A stretch of DNA of 41,683 bases from an uncultured Alphaproteobacteria bacterium (GTDB taxonomy: Bacteria > Pseudomonadota > Alphaproteobacteria > Rs-D84 > CACZYB01): NCBI GenBank assembly GCA_944392955.1, contig CALXYK010000007.1, forward strand, positions 75,003 through 116,685, given 5' to 3'. Positions 2,363-34,490 of the stretch are shown piece by piece. The stretch's first letter is position 1. The number at the start of each line of letters is the position of its first letter. The translations under genes and the position numbers were made by a program. The notes under the pieces are model-generated. The model was not told the DNA's origin, did not search any database, and saw only the letters and a program-made list of their open reading frames with translations.

Positions 2363-3892
2363 GTGAAAGGGACAAAAGGAATGCAAAACAGGGTATTTTT
2401 ATTTTTGGTGTTTTTCTTATGCATCTTAAATAATGCTTCGTCCCTTGAAGCGAGGAGAACTGAGGCTTCTTTAAACGGAGCCTCAGGTTTGTCTTCAAAC
2501 GTTGCCACAATAAATGATATGGTTTGGTTAAAACCGAACGAGGCATTTCTTCCTTCCGAAGAAGATGCAATTGTCTATGAAATATCTTCGGTAAATGATG
2601 ATAGTATAAATATGTCAAAAGAATTTGGCATGACTAGCACTCAACAAAGAGTAAATAAAAATACAGAAATTTCAAAGAAAATTGATACCCCTGTTAAACA
2701 GGAAAAGCAATTAAGTTCCTTAAAGGCTGAGGATAAAGTAAAAATTGTTTCCAAAACTGACACTGCCAAAAAAGAAAATAAAACAACATCTTCAAAAAAA
2801 CAAAAAAATATTGATACTACTAATTCTAGTAAGAAGACAGATGATAAGTTTTCAAATATAAAGGTGGAAGAGGGTGAAGAAGTTTTAGTCTTTATGTCTC
2901 CATCAAAAATAGATAATAAAAAAAGTGATACCTCCTCCAACATAACTATTTCCCAAAATGAACAAAAGGTTGATAATGTTCCAACTAATACTCAACCTTC
3001 TACAACATCAGTTGTTGCTTCTGCCGACACTAATCCATTTGGTGTAATTGTTTCAAATACAAATATAAAAGAAGACGAAAAAACTTCGGCAGACAAAAAT
3101 CCATTTGTTCGTGCCTTTTCCGCTCTTCGTCCAGAAAAAATTTCTAACACTAATTATAGTAATAAAAAGAAACAAAAGGAAAAAACTCTTTCATATATGA
3201 ATCCTGAATTATTAAAAAAGGATTTACACCGCACATATCTTTCTGATAATCAATACCTATCACCAGTAGAAAGTTTTTCCGATGAATATGCAGATGAGTA
3301 TTTAGAGGATGAGGCTCAGGAAAATTTTGAAAATCAATCAGAAGCCTATGCCGAAGAATATGCAGACGATACGAATTTTTCTTCGCAAAGAAATGTAAAG
3401 GATGCATTGGAAGGTGATGGTCCAGTAGATATAAATGAGATAAAGGAAAAAATCCAAACAACAAAGAAAATGTCCAATAGGGCAAGTGGACCTTTAAAGG
3501 CAGGTACCCGTGAAGTTTTAGAAATGAAAATAGATTTTCAGGATGGAAGTAGTGCAGTTTCAGGCGAAAGTGTTAATTTAATAAGGTCTTTTGCTCAGGT
3601 TGCGACAGATCAGCCAACTAACTCAATAGAAATTACAATACCAGAAAGTGTGATGAGTGATATAAAAAAGAAAAAATTAACAGCTCGTCGTCTTTCTATT
3701 GTAAGTAATATTTTAAGGAATGCGGGCATTTCCGATAAACAAATAAAACCAGTTTTAAGTAATAGAGATGAAGATTCTTTTGCATTTAGGATTATAAGTA
3801 ATGACGAATATACTACATTCAGGGTAAGCAAGGGTGTAGATATGTTTGGTGAAGAAGAAAATGTAAAGGAATATAATGTAATGAAATGGTAA
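2363..3892 (+). CDS. Exported protein with degenerate OmpA-like C-terminal domain
   Basis: No specific family recognised. The N-terminus has a hydrophobic signal-like segment (VFLFLVFFLCILNNASS). Residues about 60-350 are low-complexity, rich in Lys/Ser/Thr/Asp/Glu and probably disordered. Residues about 375-480 resemble an OmpA/MotB peptidoglycan-binding fold: MKIDFQDGSSAVSGESV matches the first strand, and KLTARRLSIVSNILRNAGI matches the LSxxRAxxVxxxLxxxGI helix, followed by IKPVLS. The usual GHTD and conserved Asn are missing, so peptidoglycan binding is doubtful. The GTG start at 2363 is chosen because GAAGGAG lies 5 nt upstream; the in-frame ATG at 2381 has no spacing to its purine tract. 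The 3' end overlaps comF by 7 nt, implying co-transcription. Confidence 0.7.
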   Translation: MKGTKGMQNRVFLFLVFFLCILNNASSLEARRTEASLNGASGLSSNVATINDMVWLKPNEAFLPSEEDAIVYEISSVNDDSINMSKEFGMTSTQQRVNKNTEISKKIDTPVKQEKQLSSLKAEDKVKIVSKTDTAKKENKTTSSKKQKNIDTTNSSKKTDDKFSNIKVEEGEEVLVFMSPSKIDNKKSDTSSNITISQNEQKVDNVPTNTQPSTTSVVASADTNPFGVIVSNTNIKEDEKTSADKNPFVRAFSALRPEKISNTNYSNKKKQKEKTLSYMNPELLKKDLHRTYLSDNQYLSPVESFSDEYADEYLEDEAQENFENQSEAYAEEYADDTNFSSQRNVKDALEGDGPVDINEIKEKIQTTKKMSNRASGPLKAGTREVLEMKIDFQDGSSAVSGESVNLIRSFAQVATDQPTNSIEITIPESVMSDIKKKKLTARRLSIVSNILRNAGISDKQIKPVLSNRDEDSFAFRIISNDEYTTFRVSKGVDMFGEEENVKEYNVMKW

Positions 3893-4614
3893 TAGGTAAT
3901 ATTCTAAATTCAATCGTAAACTTTGTATTCCCTCCACAATGTTATGTCTGTAAGAAAATATTAGAAAGCGAAGATGGACTTTGTTTTGAATGTTTATCCA
4001 AAATAAATTTCATTACTAAACCAAGATGTAGTTGTTGTGGTATTCCATTTGAATTTAATATAGAAGGGAAAAATAAAAAATTACTATGTCCCAAATGTAT
4101 GCTTAAATATTATCGTTTTGATGAATGTATTTCATCTGTTCGTTATGATGATATATCTAAAAAGATAATATTACCTTTTAAACATGGGGACAGGACAAAT
4201 TTTGCAAAATTTATGGCAAAGATAATGTATACAAGTGGAAAAAGCATAATAGAAAAATCAGATATAATAATTCCCGTTCCAATACATTTTACTCGTATGT
4301 TAAAAAGGAAATATAATCAATCAAGTCTTCTTTGTAAATTTATAGGGAAAAGAAGTAATAAACCTGTTTTATACTCATTATTGATTCGTAAACATGCCAC
4401 GGCATCACAGGGACATTTTTCTTTAACCCAAAGGAAACAAAATATACTAGGTGCTTTTACTATAAAAAATCCTGACAAGATAAAGGGTAAAAATATCCTA
4501 CTAATAGATGATGTGTTTACAACAGGTGCTACTGTTAATGAATGTTCAAAGATATTAAAGCAAAACGGGGTAAACAAAATTTATGTTTTAACTTTTGCAA
4601 GGGCTGTAAAATAA
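3886..4614 (+). CDS. comF: ComF family phosphoribosyltransferase-like protein
   Basis: ComF/GntX family protein, linked to DNA uptake or nucleic-acid processing in several bacteria; its biochemical role is unsettled. The 242-residue length is typical. The N-terminus has a zinc-ribbon-like set of Cys pairs (CYVCKK, CFEC, CSCCG, CPKC within residues 12-67). The C-terminus carries the PRPP-binding signature ILLIDDVFTTGAT near residues 204-216. The PVPIHFTRMLKRKYNQSSLL segment is also typical of the family. The start overlaps the preceding gene by 7 nt. Only RseP follows, after a short promoter-bearing gap. Confidence 0.9.
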   Translation: MVIGNILNSIVNFVFPPQCYVCKKILESEDGLCFECLSKINFITKPRCSCCGIPFEFNIEGKNKKLLCPKCMLKYYRFDECISSVRYDDISKKIILPFKHGDRTNFAKFMAKIMYTSGKSIIEKSDIIIPVPIHFTRMLKRKYNQSSLLCKFIGKRSNKPVLYSLLIRKHATASQGHFSLTQRKQNILGAFTIKNPDKIKGKNILLIDDVFTTGATVNECSKILKQNGVNKIYVLTFARAVK

Positions 4615-8098: not shown

Positions 8099-8635
8099 AT
8101 GAAAAAAGTTCTATTATTTTTATTTTTATCATTAGGTTTTTTTACAGCATCAGTTAAGGCTGAAACAACAAATACAGTTGGAATTATAAATGTCCTTGAA
8201 ATCAATGATAAGGCAAAGGTTATGAAATCCCTAAATGCCCAAAGGGATAAGGCAGTTGAAGAAATTCAAGACGAAGTTAATTCTAAAAGGAAAGAGTTTG
8301 AAAAAAAAGAAGAAGAATTAAAGGGGAAACAGTCCTTAATGGAAAAAGAAGCATTTGGTAAAGAAGTTGTTTCTTTTCAAATGGATGTTATGAATTACGA
8401 TAAACAAACAGAACAAAAACTAAGCAAAGTGGAAAAATCCTATGTTGAAGCATTAAAAACTATACAAAAAGATTATCTTGATAGAATAGTTAGAGATATT
8501 GGAAAATCAAAAGGTTTTGAAGTAGTTATAAATGCTCAAACTGCTATTATCCTAAATGATAATCTTGATATTACAGAAGATGTTATAGAAGCATTAGATG
8601 AAGAAATTACAGAAATAGATTTAAGTAGATACTAA
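8099..8635 (+). CDS. skp: Periplasmic chaperone Skp/OmpH
   Basis: Skp holds unfolded outer-membrane proteins in the periplasm and hands them to BamA. The protein has a clear signal peptide (MKKVLLFLFLSLGFFTASVKA), a short beta region (NTVGIINVLEI), then two long charged coiled-coil helices (about residues 45-140) closing with a strand region (GFEVVINAQTAIILNDNLDIT). Length (178 aa) fits. AGAGGAG precedes the ATG. Its position after bamA supports the call. The next gene is a paralogue with the same architecture. Confidence 0.92.
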   Translation: MKKVLLFLFLSLGFFTASVKAETTNTVGIINVLEINDKAKVMKSLNAQRDKAVEEIQDEVNSKRKEFEKKEEELKGKQSLMEKEAFGKEVVSFQMDVMNYDKQTEQKLSKVEKSYVEALKTIQKDYLDRIVRDIGKSKGFEVVINAQTAIILNDNLDITEDVIEALDEEITEIDLSRY

Positions 8636-8711: not shown

Positions 8712-9281
8712 ATGCTAACTACAAGAAATTTATTTTTATCAGTTATAATTGTATTTTTGTGTTCTTGTTCATCATTACAAAAACATGCTCCTCAAAATGC
8801 TACTACAAAAATTTATAATAAGGTTGGGACAATAGATATTGATGCAATTCATCAACAGGTAAGGGTAATAAATAACCTTAATCTTCAAAAGGAAAAAGCA
8901 ATACAAAAATTAAAAACAGAAATAGATGCAAAAGAGTCAGAGTTTGATAACAAAAGAAAACAAATCAAAGAAAAAGAAGGCTCAATTGATAAAGAAAATT
9001 TATTAAGGGAACTTCAAATATTACAAATGGATATTATGTCCTATGACAAGCAAATTTCCAATCGTATGAGTGATATACAAAAAAGATATGTTAACGCTTT
9101 GGAACTTATACAAAAACAATATCTTAATGATATAGTTAAAGATATAGGGAAAAAGAAAAAACTGGAAATAGTTGTAAACGGGCAAACTGCAATTCTTATA
9201 AACGAAAGCCTTGATATTACTGCTGATGTTATACAACAACTTAATCAACAATTAAAAGATATTACATTTGAAACAAAGTAA
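8712..9281 (+). CDS. Skp/OmpH-like lipoprotein (skp paralogue)
   Basis: Tandem paralogue of the preceding skp. Shared features include the motif pattern QMDxMxYDKQ, the long charged coiled coil, and the C-terminal strand region VVNGQTAILINESLDIT. Unlike skp, its N-terminus ends in a lipobox (VFLCSC, Cys about residue 19), predicting lipid anchoring, probably to the outer-membrane inner leaflet since the +2 residue is Ser. A membrane-tethered chaperone near BamA is plausible but inferred. It has its own promoter and a palindromic control region, so it can be expressed separately from skp. Ribosome-binding site AAAGGGGG, 8 nt spacing. Confidence 0.85.
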   Translation: MLTTRNLFLSVIIVFLCSCSSLQKHAPQNATTKIYNKVGTIDIDAIHQQVRVINNLNLQKEKAIQKLKTEIDAKESEFDNKRKQIKEKEGSIDKENLLRELQILQMDIMSYDKQISNRMSDIQKRYVNALELIQKQYLNDIVKDIGKKKKLEIVVNGQTAILINESLDITADVIQQLNQQLKDITFETK

Positions 9282-29586: not shown

Positions 29587-29621
29587 CAATGTTGATAAGA
29601 GGGAATAAAAGGAGATATATA

Positions 29622-30266
29622 TTGAGACACATAGATGAACAAAGATATTTATGGTTATTTCGTGCATTTGGAATATTTTTGGTAATAAGTATTTTTTTAA
29701 ACATAACACTCATCGTTGCATTTGAAAAGGTATCTCCTCAACCAAAGAAGGAAGCTTTTCTAATAACAGGGGAAAACAGGGATATTTCAAAAATATATTT
29801 AGAAAGGAAAAACAATTCTGATTTAGATATTTCTCAGGACAATGTTGGTTATGTTATCGCAAAAAATTATATTTCACAATATATCATAAACAGGGAAAGT
29901 ATCTTTTTAAATCGTGGTAAAATGTTAAATCTTTGGGGCACCGAAAGCGAGATTTTTTATCTGTCATCAACACCTGTCTACAATCAATTTGTAAATAGTG
30001 ATTACTATAAGCAAGGGATTATAAATTCCAACAGGCAAATAATTACAACTTCTATCACTGATTTAGAATACCAAAGCAAGTCAAAGGAATGGATTGCAGT
30101 TGTAAAATTGAAAAAAACGGATGAAAACGGATTAAATCCAATATTTGAAACAAAAAGAATAAGGATAAAAAGTAAATTTACAACTGGAAAAATTTCATTA
30201 ACTCCACAAAAAGAATGGGAAAACCCACTTGGATTTAAAATAACAGAATACGAATATATAAAATAA
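29622..30266 (+). CDS. VirB8/DotI-like T4SS inner-membrane protein (copy 3)
   Basis: Short cytoplasmic N-terminus (RHIDEQRYLWLFRAFGIF), one transmembrane helix (about residues 11-34), and a periplasmic domain with YVIAKNYISQYIINRESIF, the VirB8-like first helix, then strand pairs (TTSITDLEYQSKSKEWIAVVKL) resembling the NTF2-like fold. TTG at 29622 is preferred: AAAAGGAG lies 7 nt upstream, and the ATG at 29589 has no ribosome-binding site and precedes the predicted transcript start. First gene before VirB9- and VirB10-like genes, matching the VirB8-9-10 and DotI-H-G order. Confidence 0.7.
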   Translation: MRHIDEQRYLWLFRAFGIFLVISIFLNITLIVAFEKVSPQPKKEAFLITGENRDISKIYLERKNNSDLDISQDNVGYVIAKNYISQYIINRESIFLNRGKMLNLWGTESEIFYLSSTPVYNQFVNSDYYKQGIINSNRQIITTSITDLEYQSKSKEWIAVVKLKKTDENGLNPIFETKRIRIKSKFTTGKISLTPQKEWENPLGFKITEYEYIK

Positions 30267-30337: not shown

Positions 30338-31867
30338 ATGAAAAATATTTTAAGGTTAACTATCTTATTATTAAGTTTTTTAATAAAACCAACTTTTGTT
30401 TTTGCACAGGAATATACAGCCGCAGGTTTTGGTACACAAACTGCATGGGATAATCCAATGCAAAATATGGGTGAAAATCAAACCAAACCAGGATATCAAA
30501 AAATACAATGGGAACCTGGTTCTGTTATGCCAATAAAGTTAAGAGATGGAATGTTAACAGTTATAAATTTTCCTGAATGGGAAACGATAAAGGATGCCTA
30601 TGTCGGCGACAGGGATTTTTTTGATGGTCGTCCCGTTGAAAAAAATGTATTTATGATTTCTCCAGTTGATGGTAGGGCAATGGCTGATACCAATTTATTT
30701 ATTTTTGGAAGTAGTGGAAATAAATATGTTTTCTATTTAAAGTCAGAGCCATTAAATACCGAAAAAATTACATCATCAGTTATAGATATATCTGTTCCAT
30801 ATAAATATAGTAAGGGAAGTTCTTCGTCAGGCAGTTCCGATGGCAATTTTTCTACAATGAAATCTATAATGGGCGGACAAAGTTTTAAGGAAATAGGAGA
30901 TTCCGATTGGGAAGGTGAAGATTTCGGCTGGATAAAAAGTATAAATGTTGATCCAACAGAATTTCGTTTTGATTTAGATGTTTTTGTCCCAAATCCAGAT
31001 GATTATATAATCGCACCGGAAAGAGTTTGGCGAGACAATATATTCACTTATATTGACTTTGGTGAAAAGGCATTAAATATGAACCAAAGACCAGTAGTCT
31101 CTCTTTTAGTAGAAGGTGGTGAATCTCCGGTAGGTTTCCGAACCGAAGGTCCACAAAGTCGTCTTTTAGTAGTTGAAGCAATAGGTGATTTAGTTCTAAG
31201 AAATGGCGGAAGAATAGTTTGCATAAAACTACGTTCAAAACCATACCTTCTATCAAACCCACCACCACCACAGGATTTATTGGCAATCTCGGGTAATGTT
31301 GGTGGTGATATAACAGGTGTTGATTACATGAATACAGGTGTAGAGGCATTGGGCAACTATGGTTATGGCTATGATATGCAGGGTGGATACAATACCAATA
31401 TGCCTATGTCAACCTATGCATATCCACAACAGATGGTGGGCGGATATTACCCATCAATGCAAATACAACCAGGGGTAAGTTATTACAACAGCAGTGAGAA
31501 CGAGGCTATATACAATTCCTTATTGCCAAAGACAAAAACTAATGCTTCGGTTTTACCAAACCATTATGTTCCACTTGTAAAACAAAATAACCAAACGGTT
31601 AGTGTTGAAATTTTCAAAGGAAAGTCAGTTGTTGAGTTAGAGGATAAATGGCTAGAACTAAGTGAGAAGCTTCCATGGCTTGATGAATACACACCATTTT
31701 ATTCCGTTGAAACAAGTGGTGTTGATGAAATAGGTCAGCAAAGATATTATGGTGGTGAATTATATAGATTAAGGATAGGTCCATTCTCAAAGATAGAGGT
31801 TGCTGATGAAATATGTCAAAAACTATCACTTCAAAATGTTCCATGTGGAGTAGTAAGGGCACAATAG
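30338..31867 (+). CDS. VirB9/DotH-like T4SS core protein with C-terminal SPOR domain
   Basis: Outer-membrane core-complex subunit of a type IV secretion system. A signal peptide ends near residue 24 (PTFVFA). Residues about 45-150 match the VirB9/TrbG N-terminal domain: MPIKLRDGMLTVINFPEWE, YVGDRDFF, then ADTNLFIFGSSGNKYVFYL. A middle region follows that may be a VirB9 C-terminal domain with an inserted linker, and a Pro/Gly/Tyr/Met-rich stretch (about 300-385). The last 90 residues look like a SPOR peptidoglycan-binding domain (LYRLRIGPFSKIEVADEICQ). That tail is unusual for VirB9. A possible internal promoter (TTGTAA at 30279) precedes the gene. Confidence 0.8.
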   Translation: MKNILRLTILLLSFLIKPTFVFAQEYTAAGFGTQTAWDNPMQNMGENQTKPGYQKIQWEPGSVMPIKLRDGMLTVINFPEWETIKDAYVGDRDFFDGRPVEKNVFMISPVDGRAMADTNLFIFGSSGNKYVFYLKSEPLNTEKITSSVIDISVPYKYSKGSSSSGSSDGNFSTMKSIMGGQSFKEIGDSDWEGEDFGWIKSINVDPTEFRFDLDVFVPNPDDYIIAPERVWRDNIFTYIDFGEKALNMNQRPVVSLLVEGGESPVGFRTEGPQSRLLVVEAIGDLVLRNGGRIVCIKLRSKPYLLSNPPPPQDLLAISGNVGGDITGVDYMNTGVEALGNYGYGYDMQGGYNTNMPMSTYAYPQQMVGGYYPSMQIQPGVSYYNSSENEAIYNSLLPKTKTNASVLPNHYVPLVKQNNQTVSVEIFKGKSVVELEDKWLELSEKLPWLDEYTPFYSVETSGVDEIGQQRYYGGELYRLRIGPFSKIEVADEICQKLSLQNVPCGVVRAQ

Positions 31868-31885: not shown

Positions 31886-34105
31886 ATGGATTTGTTTAAA
31901 AGGAAGAAAAGCATAAGCAATAGCAAAACTGTATCAGATGAAAATACAGAAATGCTTCCTTCTAATAAACAAAGCAAATCTGACATCATAACAAAAAAAA
32001 CAAATACCCTTTTGGTTATAATTGCCATAGGTATGTTAGGTGTTTTTATAATAGGTGCAGTTTTAAGTGCAAATAAAAACAGCGCAGAAATATCTTCTAC
32101 GGAAAAGGGATTGGAAACCGCCGTTGATAAAAAAAAGTTAGAAGATGTTCCATACCTATCGCCGGTTGTTTTATTTGATCCTGATACTTTGAAAATAGAT
32201 AATCAGTTGGTAGGAAGTGAAATTTTTAAACAAATCCTTGTTTCTGTATCTGTTAATCCAGTTAAATTTACCGATATATCATTATCATTCACCGTTGAGG
32301 GGCTTATCCTTGATGCCAGTGATTGTTTATCTCGGGAAAAGGTATCTGCAAATTCCAGTTGTTCAATAAACCTTACATGGACACCGGAAAAAAAGGAAAA
32401 CAAAAGTCTGTTTATAATGGTAAAATATAACGAGTTAGAAGATAATAATGTAGTTAAAAATGCAGATAAAACAGCTAAAATAAATATGACTCTTCAATCA
32501 ACAGAGCCTGAACCTGTTGTTGCACCTGCACCTGAACCTGCCCCAATACAACAGGAGCAGTTTTTTGATGAAGGATACGAAATTGATGAAAGTTTAGCAC
32601 CAGAGGAAGAAACCTTCTTTGAACAAACTATACCACAACCCCGCACAACACAAAAACCGGACGATTGTAAAAAATATGCAAGTAAGGCTTATGATTTCAG
32701 TGGAACTTTCATAGGTTGGGTTCAGGGAAATAACGATGTTTTTTCACCTAATTGCTCTGATGTAATAGGTGTTATGCAAGATGATGGTATGGTAATGGAA
32801 ATAGGCACCGGAATAATAATAGGAAAGGGGCCTGTTATGGATAAGAAAAAGTCAGAGGAGCGAAGAATTGAACTTACACTACCAATACTTGATGAAATAA
32901 TGCAAACTACTGGCACCCCACCTGAACCAAATTTTGAGGAGGTGATGAGCAATCGTTATACCCTTAAATCATCAAGCCAACCAGTCGACGATTACACTAC
33001 ACTACATAGGATAGAGGATACCCTTGGTATATACGAAGAACAACAGAAAAAATTAATCCCATTTACAATAACAAATTCTGCTCAGGTTTCCTCTATGCCA
33101 AAGGATGAAAGATATGTCCTTCGTCAATCAAAACCTATACCTGCTGTTTTAAACCGACCTATTTACATGTCATCGGATACAAGTGAATTACAGGATGTAA
33201 CCGCTACGGTTGAAAGAAATGTTTTCGGTGGTGATGGACGCACTATAATAATACCTTCTGGATCCCAATTAATAGGTGTGGCAAAATTACCGGATGCAGC
33301 TGGAATACAGGCTGTGCAAAAAATAAACATAAGCTGGAACCGACTTATTCGTCCTGATGGTGCGGAATTTGATCTTGGTGCCGTTGGTAATTATTCTGCG
33401 GATGCCCAAGGTCGTGCAGGTGTACCTGGTAAAAACGATACCGAATATATGCAACAACTATTTATAAAACCACTTCTTTATAGTGCATTGCCTGTCGCGA
33501 TGGAGGCAATATTCCCATCAACATCAAACCTTGTCACCCGTGTAAGACGTTCCGATGGAACATATAATACTATAGAGGGAGTTGCAAACACATTCGATAT
33601 TACTGATGGTAATAATGATAATTATAGTTACGATTGGAATGATACTACATACCAACTTGATATGTCATCAAAGGATAAAATAAAGGCGGAAATTCAACAA
33701 AACTTTAAATCAGTTATGCAAAAATTGATTGAAGATAGTGCAAAACAAAAAATACCTTTTACCGTTCCTTCTGGCACCAGGATACAGGTATTTTTGAATA
33801 ATGACATTATGCTCCGCACAACAGATGGAATAGATGAGTTAATAAATGGAGAAAATGGAGACAATGTGGCAAATAAATATAAATATGGGGATGAGAGTGG
33901 TGTAACGGATACAAGAAGAGGTAATTTTTTATATGACTTCACTTCTAACTCAACAGATGGGGCAACTACATTTAAAGATTATACTACCGATGCTAACAGG
34001 ACTGCAATCAATCAAGAATATATAGACACTTATGGAGCAGATGACGCATATTATGATGATACAGGTGATGTATATGACGAAGATACAGGTGAGGTATATT
34101 ACTAA
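31886..34105 (+). CDS. VirB10/DotG-like T4SS core protein with Ig/ASH-like insert
   Basis: Scaffold that spans from inner to outer membrane in T4SS. Short cytoplasmic N-terminus; one transmembrane helix (about residues 40-63); a beta domain (about 93-182) with the pattern GLILDASDCLSREKVSANSS, resembling ASH/choice-of-anchor Ig domains; a Pro/Glu-rich linker (about 205-250); and the TrbI/VirB10 barrel domain (about 415-550). The last has IPAVLNRPIYMSS, RTIIIPSGSQLIGVAKL, ISWNRLIRPDGAEFDLGAVG and DAQGRAGVPG. The C-terminal 190 residues extend beyond the usual VirB10 end and finish in an acidic, Tyr-rich DTGxVY repeat. The protein (739 aa) is larger than typical VirB10 (about 380-480). Confidence 0.85.
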   Translation: MDLFKRKKSISNSKTVSDENTEMLPSNKQSKSDIITKKTNTLLVIIAIGMLGVFIIGAVLSANKNSAEISSTEKGLETAVDKKKLEDVPYLSPVVLFDPDTLKIDNQLVGSEIFKQILVSVSVNPVKFTDISLSFTVEGLILDASDCLSREKVSANSSCSINLTWTPEKKENKSLFIMVKYNELEDNNVVKNADKTAKINMTLQSTEPEPVVAPAPEPAPIQQEQFFDEGYEIDESLAPEEETFFEQTIPQPRTTQKPDDCKKYASKAYDFSGTFIGWVQGNNDVFSPNCSDVIGVMQDDGMVMEIGTGIIIGKGPVMDKKKSEERRIELTLPILDEIMQTTGTPPEPNFEEVMSNRYTLKSSSQPVDDYTTLHRIEDTLGIYEEQQKKLIPFTITNSAQVSSMPKDERYVLRQSKPIPAVLNRPIYMSSDTSELQDVTATVERNVFGGDGRTIIIPSGSQLIGVAKLPDAAGIQAVQKINISWNRLIRPDGAEFDLGAVGNYSADAQGRAGVPGKNDTEYMQQLFIKPLLYSALPVAMEAIFPSTSNLVTRVRRSDGTYNTIEGVANTFDITDGNNDNYSYDWNDTTYQLDMSSKDKIKAEIQQNFKSVMQKLIEDSAKQKIPFTVPSGTRIQVFLNNDIMLRTTDGIDELINGENGDNVANKYKYGDESGVTDTRRGNFLYDFTSNSTDGATTFKDYTTDANRTAINQEYIDTYGADDAYYDDTGDVYDEDTGEVYY

Positions 34106-34130: not shown

Positions 34131-34490
34131 ATGAAAACATTTTTATTTGTATTAGGATTATTACTTTCTTTTTCTTTACCTATCAGGGCCGAAGGCTTTA
34201 TGACAGCATTCGAAGAAATCCCTCTTCAAGATGGTATACAGGAAGAGGAACCCTTCTCCTTTGATACCGAAGATTTTCGTATAATAGAACAATATGTTTC
34301 CAGCACAACTATTTCAAAAGATGAATTCCTTAAATTTTATAAGGAAACATTATCATCACTTGGTTGGGAATTAAAAAGTTCTAAAAATAACACTTACTCT
34401 TTCAAAAGGGAAGACGAAGGACTAACCCTTACCATAGAGTCGGAATCCCCACTTGTTGTATTATTTATATTAAAACCTTATGGGAAATAA
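34131..34490 (+). CDS. Small secreted protein of unknown function in the T4SS locus
   Basis: 119 residues: signal peptide (FLFVLGLLLSFSLPIRA, cut near residue 20) and a small alpha/beta domain (about 50-119; KDEFLKFYKETLSSLGWELK, then YSFKREDEGLTLTIE). I recognise no family; the YxxTLxxLGW pattern occurs in several small periplasmic proteins. It starts at the ATG at 34131, with AAGGAG 6 nt upstream, and not at the longer frame beginning inside the VirB10-like gene. Location suggests a T4SS accessory factor. Converges on sodB, leaving 10 bp. Confidence 0.7.
   Translation: MKTFLFVLGLLLSFSLPIRAEGFMTAFEEIPLQDGIQEEEPFSFDTEDFRIIEQYVSSTTISKDEFLKFYKETLSSLGWELKSSKNNTYSFKREDEGLTLTIESESPLVVLFILKPYGK

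Follow-up and report, generated by a model that had tools for sequence, protein, structure and literature searches.

A divergent VirB9 protein with a C-terminal SPOR domain in an uncultured alphaproteobacterium

The window, by which the whole analysed stretch of 41,683 nucleotides is meant (contig CALXYK010000007.1 of assembly GCA_944392955.1, positions 75,003 to 116,685), harbors an ATG-initiated gene on the + strand (30338..31867) that encodes a 509-aa fusion of VirB9 and a SPOR domain (Pfam CagX, 1.3e-18; SPOR, 1.4e-5). The host is probably a gut-associated alphaproteobacterium with a genome of ~0.9 Mb; among the assemblies of its relatives, recorded as Alphaproteobacteria or 'Rickettsiales', at least one comes from deer rectum, and the codes of others suggest gut samples. 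The fusion gene lies between virB8 and virB10 homologues. The upstream gene (29589..30266, +) encodes a protein of 225 aa that matches Pfam VirB8 (PF04335, 2.8e-5) barely above the cut-off, and its position in the gene order is shared with relatives. The downstream gene (31886..34105, +) encodes a VirB10 homologue of 739 aa (Pfam TrbI, 3.4e-22; NCBIfam VirB10, 1.5e-21, the latter under its cut-off). A small protein of ~119 aa with a signal-peptide-like start follows (34131..34490, +, start inferred within a mechanical ORF from 34032). It has no Pfam match, and a gene of similar length occupies the same place in the close relatives L003 and L005. Elsewhere in the window, two tandem OmpH/Skp chaperone genes (8099-8635 and 8712-9281) are located downstream of bamA, and a further ORF of 509 aa (2363-3892) gives an OmpA-type match below threshold (E 0.0086).

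The N-terminus of the fusion protein reads as signal-peptide-like. The CagX/VirB9 profile (PF03524) matches residues 53-297 with 68 bits, against a curated cut-off of 34.2, and is covered from position 3 to 196 of 198. Both VirB9 domains are therefore there, in agreement with the sequence-only reading, which had called this part VirB9/TrbG-like. The NCBIfam VirB9 model (TIGR02781) scores 50.8 bits against an equivalog cut-off of 217.7; judged by its sequence, the protein is a divergent VirB9 outside this named equivalog. The VirB9 core (residues 30-305; 30425..31252, +) comprises the N- and C-terminal VirB9 domains and shows a dN of ~0.05 against a dS above 1 with its nearest relatives. It is followed by a linker (residues 306-417; 31253..31588, +) that is poorly conserved in the alignment and rich in G, Y, P, M and N, much as had been described. 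The SPOR domain (residues 418-509; 31589..31864, +) is an addition behind this linker, the ordinary VirB9 C-terminal domain being located upstream of it.

Pfam SPOR (PF05036) matches residues 470-507 with 25.8 bits, above the cut-off of 21, using profile positions 38-76. The N-terminal half of the domain is too divergent in this sequence for Pfam, but a distant relative (L074) matches positions 5-76; the tails of some relatives score under the cut-off. When a profile of 15 diverse VirB9 tails was aligned by hhalign to one of 14 SPOR tails, mainly from FtsN-like proteins, the probability was 99.3 (E 4.3e-20) over 86 columns, and the tail profile also matches alphaproteobacterial FtsN-like SPOR domains. 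The fragment 408-509 is predicted to adopt a β-α-β-β-α-β order (pLDDT 77, pTM 0.65). In a fold search with this model, the RlpA SPOR domain (6i05) aligns over 75 of 76 residues at 2.2 Å (Z 9.0), followed by the RlpA complex with denuded glycan (6i09, Z 8.8) and the CwlC SPOR domain (Z 7.4). The top row is a Burkholderia exported protein (6ozd_B, Z 9.6, 82 residues, 3.1 Å); from rank five on Z is at most 5.4, and the known SPOR domain of DedD scores 5.1. A sequence search of the Protein Data Bank with the tail profile gave no SPOR match, whereas the fold search did. The full-length model, built from 11 close sequences, is poor (mean pLDDT 38.7) and gives no usable VirB9 core or tail placement; its C-terminus has the same element order as the fragment model. 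A 23-sequence profile matches the solved VirB9 6gyb weakly (E 0.022).

The SPOR match is not due to chance, and the SPOR-type pattern that the sequence-only reading had seen at the C-terminus is confirmed by both the profile comparison and the predicted fold. The competing explanation, that an ordinary VirB9 C-terminal domain had been misread as SPOR, is refuted and keeps next to no probability: the match to CagX has already run to position 196 of 198 when residue 297 is reached, the ordinary VirB9 proteins seen elsewhere in the class lack a tail of this kind, and the fold matches SPOR structures.

Genes for the ATPases and the coupling protein of a type IV secretion system (T4SS) are found in the same genome: VirB4 (C7:22739-25015, 4.2e-106, below the equivalog cut-off) and a VirB11-like ATPase (C7:50862, 6.3e-23) on contig C7, and VirD4 on contig C9 (2.7e-35). 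VirB4, VirB11-like and VirD4 proteins also occur in most or all of the relatives searched. The T4SS genes of the host genome are scattered over at least four places on contigs C7 and C9; in L003 and L005, the VirB11 gene is ~4 kb or less from the fusion, beside virB8-virB10. A search for the relaxase family PF03432 gave no match in 13 genomes, the host's included. The long, repetitive relatives at the VirB10 position had raised the possibility of a Dot/Icm (type IVB) identity, which was rejected: Pfam returns VirB8, CagX and TrbI, and on the basis of these matches the vir-type label is kept. In the SPOR-carrying families outside the order, the VirB10-position gene exceeds 1100 residues through beta-flower repeats (PF21785, up to 11 stretches). 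In other families, this gene contains a weak ASH/Ig-like stretch near the N-terminus (L083:6382-9999, L084:6451-9873, L090:693-2417). Two VirB8-type genes precede VirB9 in some related clusters (L083:2705-3403 and 3703-4413; L084:2878-3633).

This VirB9 occurs in 53 of 59 genomes of the same order, and in all 53 the matching segment reaches residue 507-509. The six genomes in which VirB9 is not matched are G019, G020, G029, G043, G046 and G050, five of them at least 96% complete; G019 retains a VirB11-like match. CagX matches are present in 84 of 385 genomes of the class. Twenty CagX genomes with long frames were fetched, and the SPOR tail is present in 16 of them, which belong to seven families outside the order. 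Relatives therefore keep the fusion, both within the order and beyond it, a point that the sequence-only reading had singled out for checking. The remaining four (L090-L093) encode a SPOR-less sister VirB9 in which no hidden tail was found, and the ordinary VirB9 proteins examined at other loci of the class likewise show no such tail. Among seven sequences searched with a profile made for this study, the plasmid VirB9 proteins of Erythrobacter aureus and Sphingosinicella contain a SPOR-like tail by that profile only (7e-8 and 5e-9, respectively). A Microvirga plasmid VirB9 (550 aa, L162:2752-4404) has an end that resembles a degenerate SPOR by eye, with an insignificant match. The phages searched gave no match. 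In 398 genomes of the phylum, a draw that held no carrier from the other families, no core-plus-tail match was found outside the order.

A tree of the core unites the 47 tailed proteins of chromosomal origin in a single supported group (100/98); adjoining it are the plasmid proteins from Sphingomonadales and the one from Microvirga (95/87 for the whole). The tail label requires two changes on this tree, and the outer placements are unsure, with long branches; that the fusion arose once is the most economical view, though not a proven one. Comparison with the two nearest relatives gives a dN of 0.045-0.047 for the core and 0.046-0.052 for the SPOR domain, with dS of 0.7-1.3. The dN/dS of the SPOR domain is ~0.06-0.08, near the core value, whereas the dN of the linker, measured on residues 306-407, is ~0.3, six times that of the flanking domains. 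The SPOR domain is therefore constrained like the core, under strong purifying selection, and the linker is not.

The ligand site of the tail departs from that of known SPOR domains at one position. In RlpA, denuded glycan is contacted by Q270, R302, R309 and R311, with F274 stacking (PMC6895207). Among SPOR domains of known structure, only the Gln position is highly conserved, and its counterparts in FtsN (Q251) and DamX (Q351) are important for septal localisation (PMC6895207). At the position of Q270, the protein has E424 (codon 31607..31609, +), and Glu replaces the canonical strand-1 Gln in 46 of 46 chromosomal VirB9 tails. Among 37 other SPOR sequences, Gln is found in 25 of the 29 with a residue there, and the RlpA and FtsN-like SPOR proteins of the host's own genome retain it. 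The Erythrobacter and Sphingosinicella plasmid tails have Asp, as read by eye. The register is supported by hhalign; the structural alignment starts with model residue 13 opposite RlpA 266, so E424 falls on 270 if the strand is ungapped. The strand-3 basic patch is kept (R477-R479, codons 31766..31774, +): R477 and R479 correspond to RlpA R309 and R311 by motif, not by superposed coordinates, the former being Arg in 39 tails and His in 7 of the 46, the latter Arg in all. The F274 position holds no Phe, Tyr or Trp in the 46 tails, and a His once. A cysteine pair is invariant both in VirB9 tails and in the other SPOR domains compared, as in FtsN-like SPORs; cysteines of this kind stabilise RgsS of Sinorhizobium meliloti (PMC7822825). 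W438, R479 and R507 are invariant and the C-terminal Q509 is nearly so, a stricter conservation than in other SPORs.

An acid opposite the NAM lactyl carboxylate should weaken binding of denuded glycan. Because Gln has become an invariant Glu while the arginines are kept, the tail probably prefers another glycan than FtsN and RlpA do, or binds with a different strength. The sequence-only reading had proposed that the domain couples the ring to denuded glycan as in cell division. This proposal is supported in part: a VirB9 core with a true SPOR domain is there, but binding of denuded glycan as in cell division would be an extrapolation, and the uniform Glu is specific evidence against its unmodified version. 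Denuded glycan itself should exist in these cells, since Amidase_3 (AmiC-type amidase) is present in 14 of 14 near-complete genomes, including the host's. Deacetylated glycan was considered as a ligand for the Glu but finds no general support, the polysaccharide deacetylase family PF01522 being absent from the host genome and present in only 4 of 21 genomes. RlpA does not hold deacetylated glycan in simulation (PMC6895207). In Legionella, a deacetylase supports Dot/Icm placement, according to work cited in PMC10838918.

The most likely function, for which the odds are slightly better than even, is to tether the outer-membrane core multivalently to peptidoglycan through a modified ligand site. 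VirB9 contributes at least 14 copies to the outer-membrane core (PMC12857230). On this reading the protein is the VirB9 subunit of a chromosomal vir-type T4SS, and its core would build the outer-membrane core ring as usual, in ~14 copies. From each copy the flexible linker would hold a SPOR domain out into the periplasm, and the resulting ring of domains may grip the peptidoglycan sacculus multivalently, giving avidity even if single binding is weak. Wherever suitable glycan is accessible, this grip would hold the machine in place or stabilise it. The assembly of the ring, the binding to peptidoglycan, the anchoring of the machine and any influence on its position in the cell are steps that we infer. 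Septal or polar placement would follow only if the ligand is denuded glycan, and is uncertain because the Gln-to-Glu change makes that ligand uncertain.

Peptidoglycan tethering is judged first, and next comes the possibility, put at little above one chance in four, that the SPOR fold now serves for contact between proteins, the sheet face with E424 and the arginines docking a component of the core complex or of the divisome instead of glycan. The invariant Glu together with the lost aromatic at the glycan site, the strict conservation of W438, R479, R507 and Q509, and the precedent of DotK/Lpg0657 (PMC7511231) all point this way. However, the arginine contacts and the cysteine pair of glycan-binding SPORs are kept, and a long variable linker fits a tether better than a docked subunit. 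Improbable, at about one chance in ten, is a tail that mainly stabilises periplasmic VirB9 or is left over from an old fusion, with no special ligand. S. meliloti RgsS is indeed destabilised when its SPOR domain is removed (PMC7822825), but purifying selection on the tail is as strong as on the core, the tail is retained in every genome of the order with VirB9, and a plain stabiliser has no need of a ligand site in which a Glu and an Arg are invariant. A more far-reaching version of the tether, to which we give roughly one chance in four, is that VirB9-SPOR marks a T4SS lineage in which a distinct acidic SPOR class reads some glycan or wall state that is not plain denuded glycan, and thereby sets the site at which the machine is built.

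In the portion of the open literature covered, as distinct from subscription papers and domain-architecture tables, no paper describing SPOR joined to VirB9/CagX was found, consistent with the sequence-only reading, which knew of no standard VirB9 with this tail; novelty is claimed for the description of the fusion only. A domain of wall-binding type on the ring subunit itself offers a single removable domain for testing two unsettled points: how so wide a ring complex is anchored in, and crosses, the peptidoglycan layer, and how a T4SS comes to its place on the cell. A large group retains the fusion, which apparently also occurs on plasmids of cultivated Sphingomonadales, and the uniform Gln-to-Glu change constitutes a natural experiment on SPOR recognition.

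The protein resembles VirB9/TrbG proteins such as Agrobacterium tumefaciens VirB9, R388 TrwF and Xanthomonas citri VirB9 in its complete two-domain core and in the order virB8-virB9-virB10. None of those proteins is known to extend beyond the core, whereas the present one continues with a linker and a SPOR domain. With FtsN-like and RlpA SPOR proteins, RgsS included, the tail shares the SPOR fold and the strand-3 arginines, and with the FtsN-like members also the cysteine pair. In contrast to them, it has Glu for Gln and is carried by a secretion ring protein, while theirs are found on a divisome protein or a lytic enzyme. In the Dot/Icm system of Legionella, the OmpA-like domain of DotK, like that of Lpg0657, resides in a separate subunit and is not fused to a VirB9-type protein. 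The likeness here is a peptidoglycan-binding-like domain that lacks ligand residues and belongs to the outer-membrane core of a T4SS; DotK and Lpg0657 are without key residues of the peptidoglycan-binding domains that they resemble, and it is suspected that they do not bind peptidoglycan (PMC7511231). Helicobacter pylori CagX is also a VirB9 enlarged by a lineage-specific region, which matters for activity (PMC13417560), but the extra region is an internal insertion that cryo-EM does not resolve, not a C-terminal SPOR domain. The plasmid VirB9 proteins of Erythrobacter aureus (NZ_CP031358.1) and Sphingosinicella sp. BN140058 (NZ_CP035502.1) share a 42% identical core and a SPOR-like tail, but differ in their short linker, in Asp for Glu and in not reaching Pfam SPOR. 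A MobA/MobL protein is encoded near the Erythrobacter system, and a MOBQ relaxase is typed on the Sphingosinicella plasmid.
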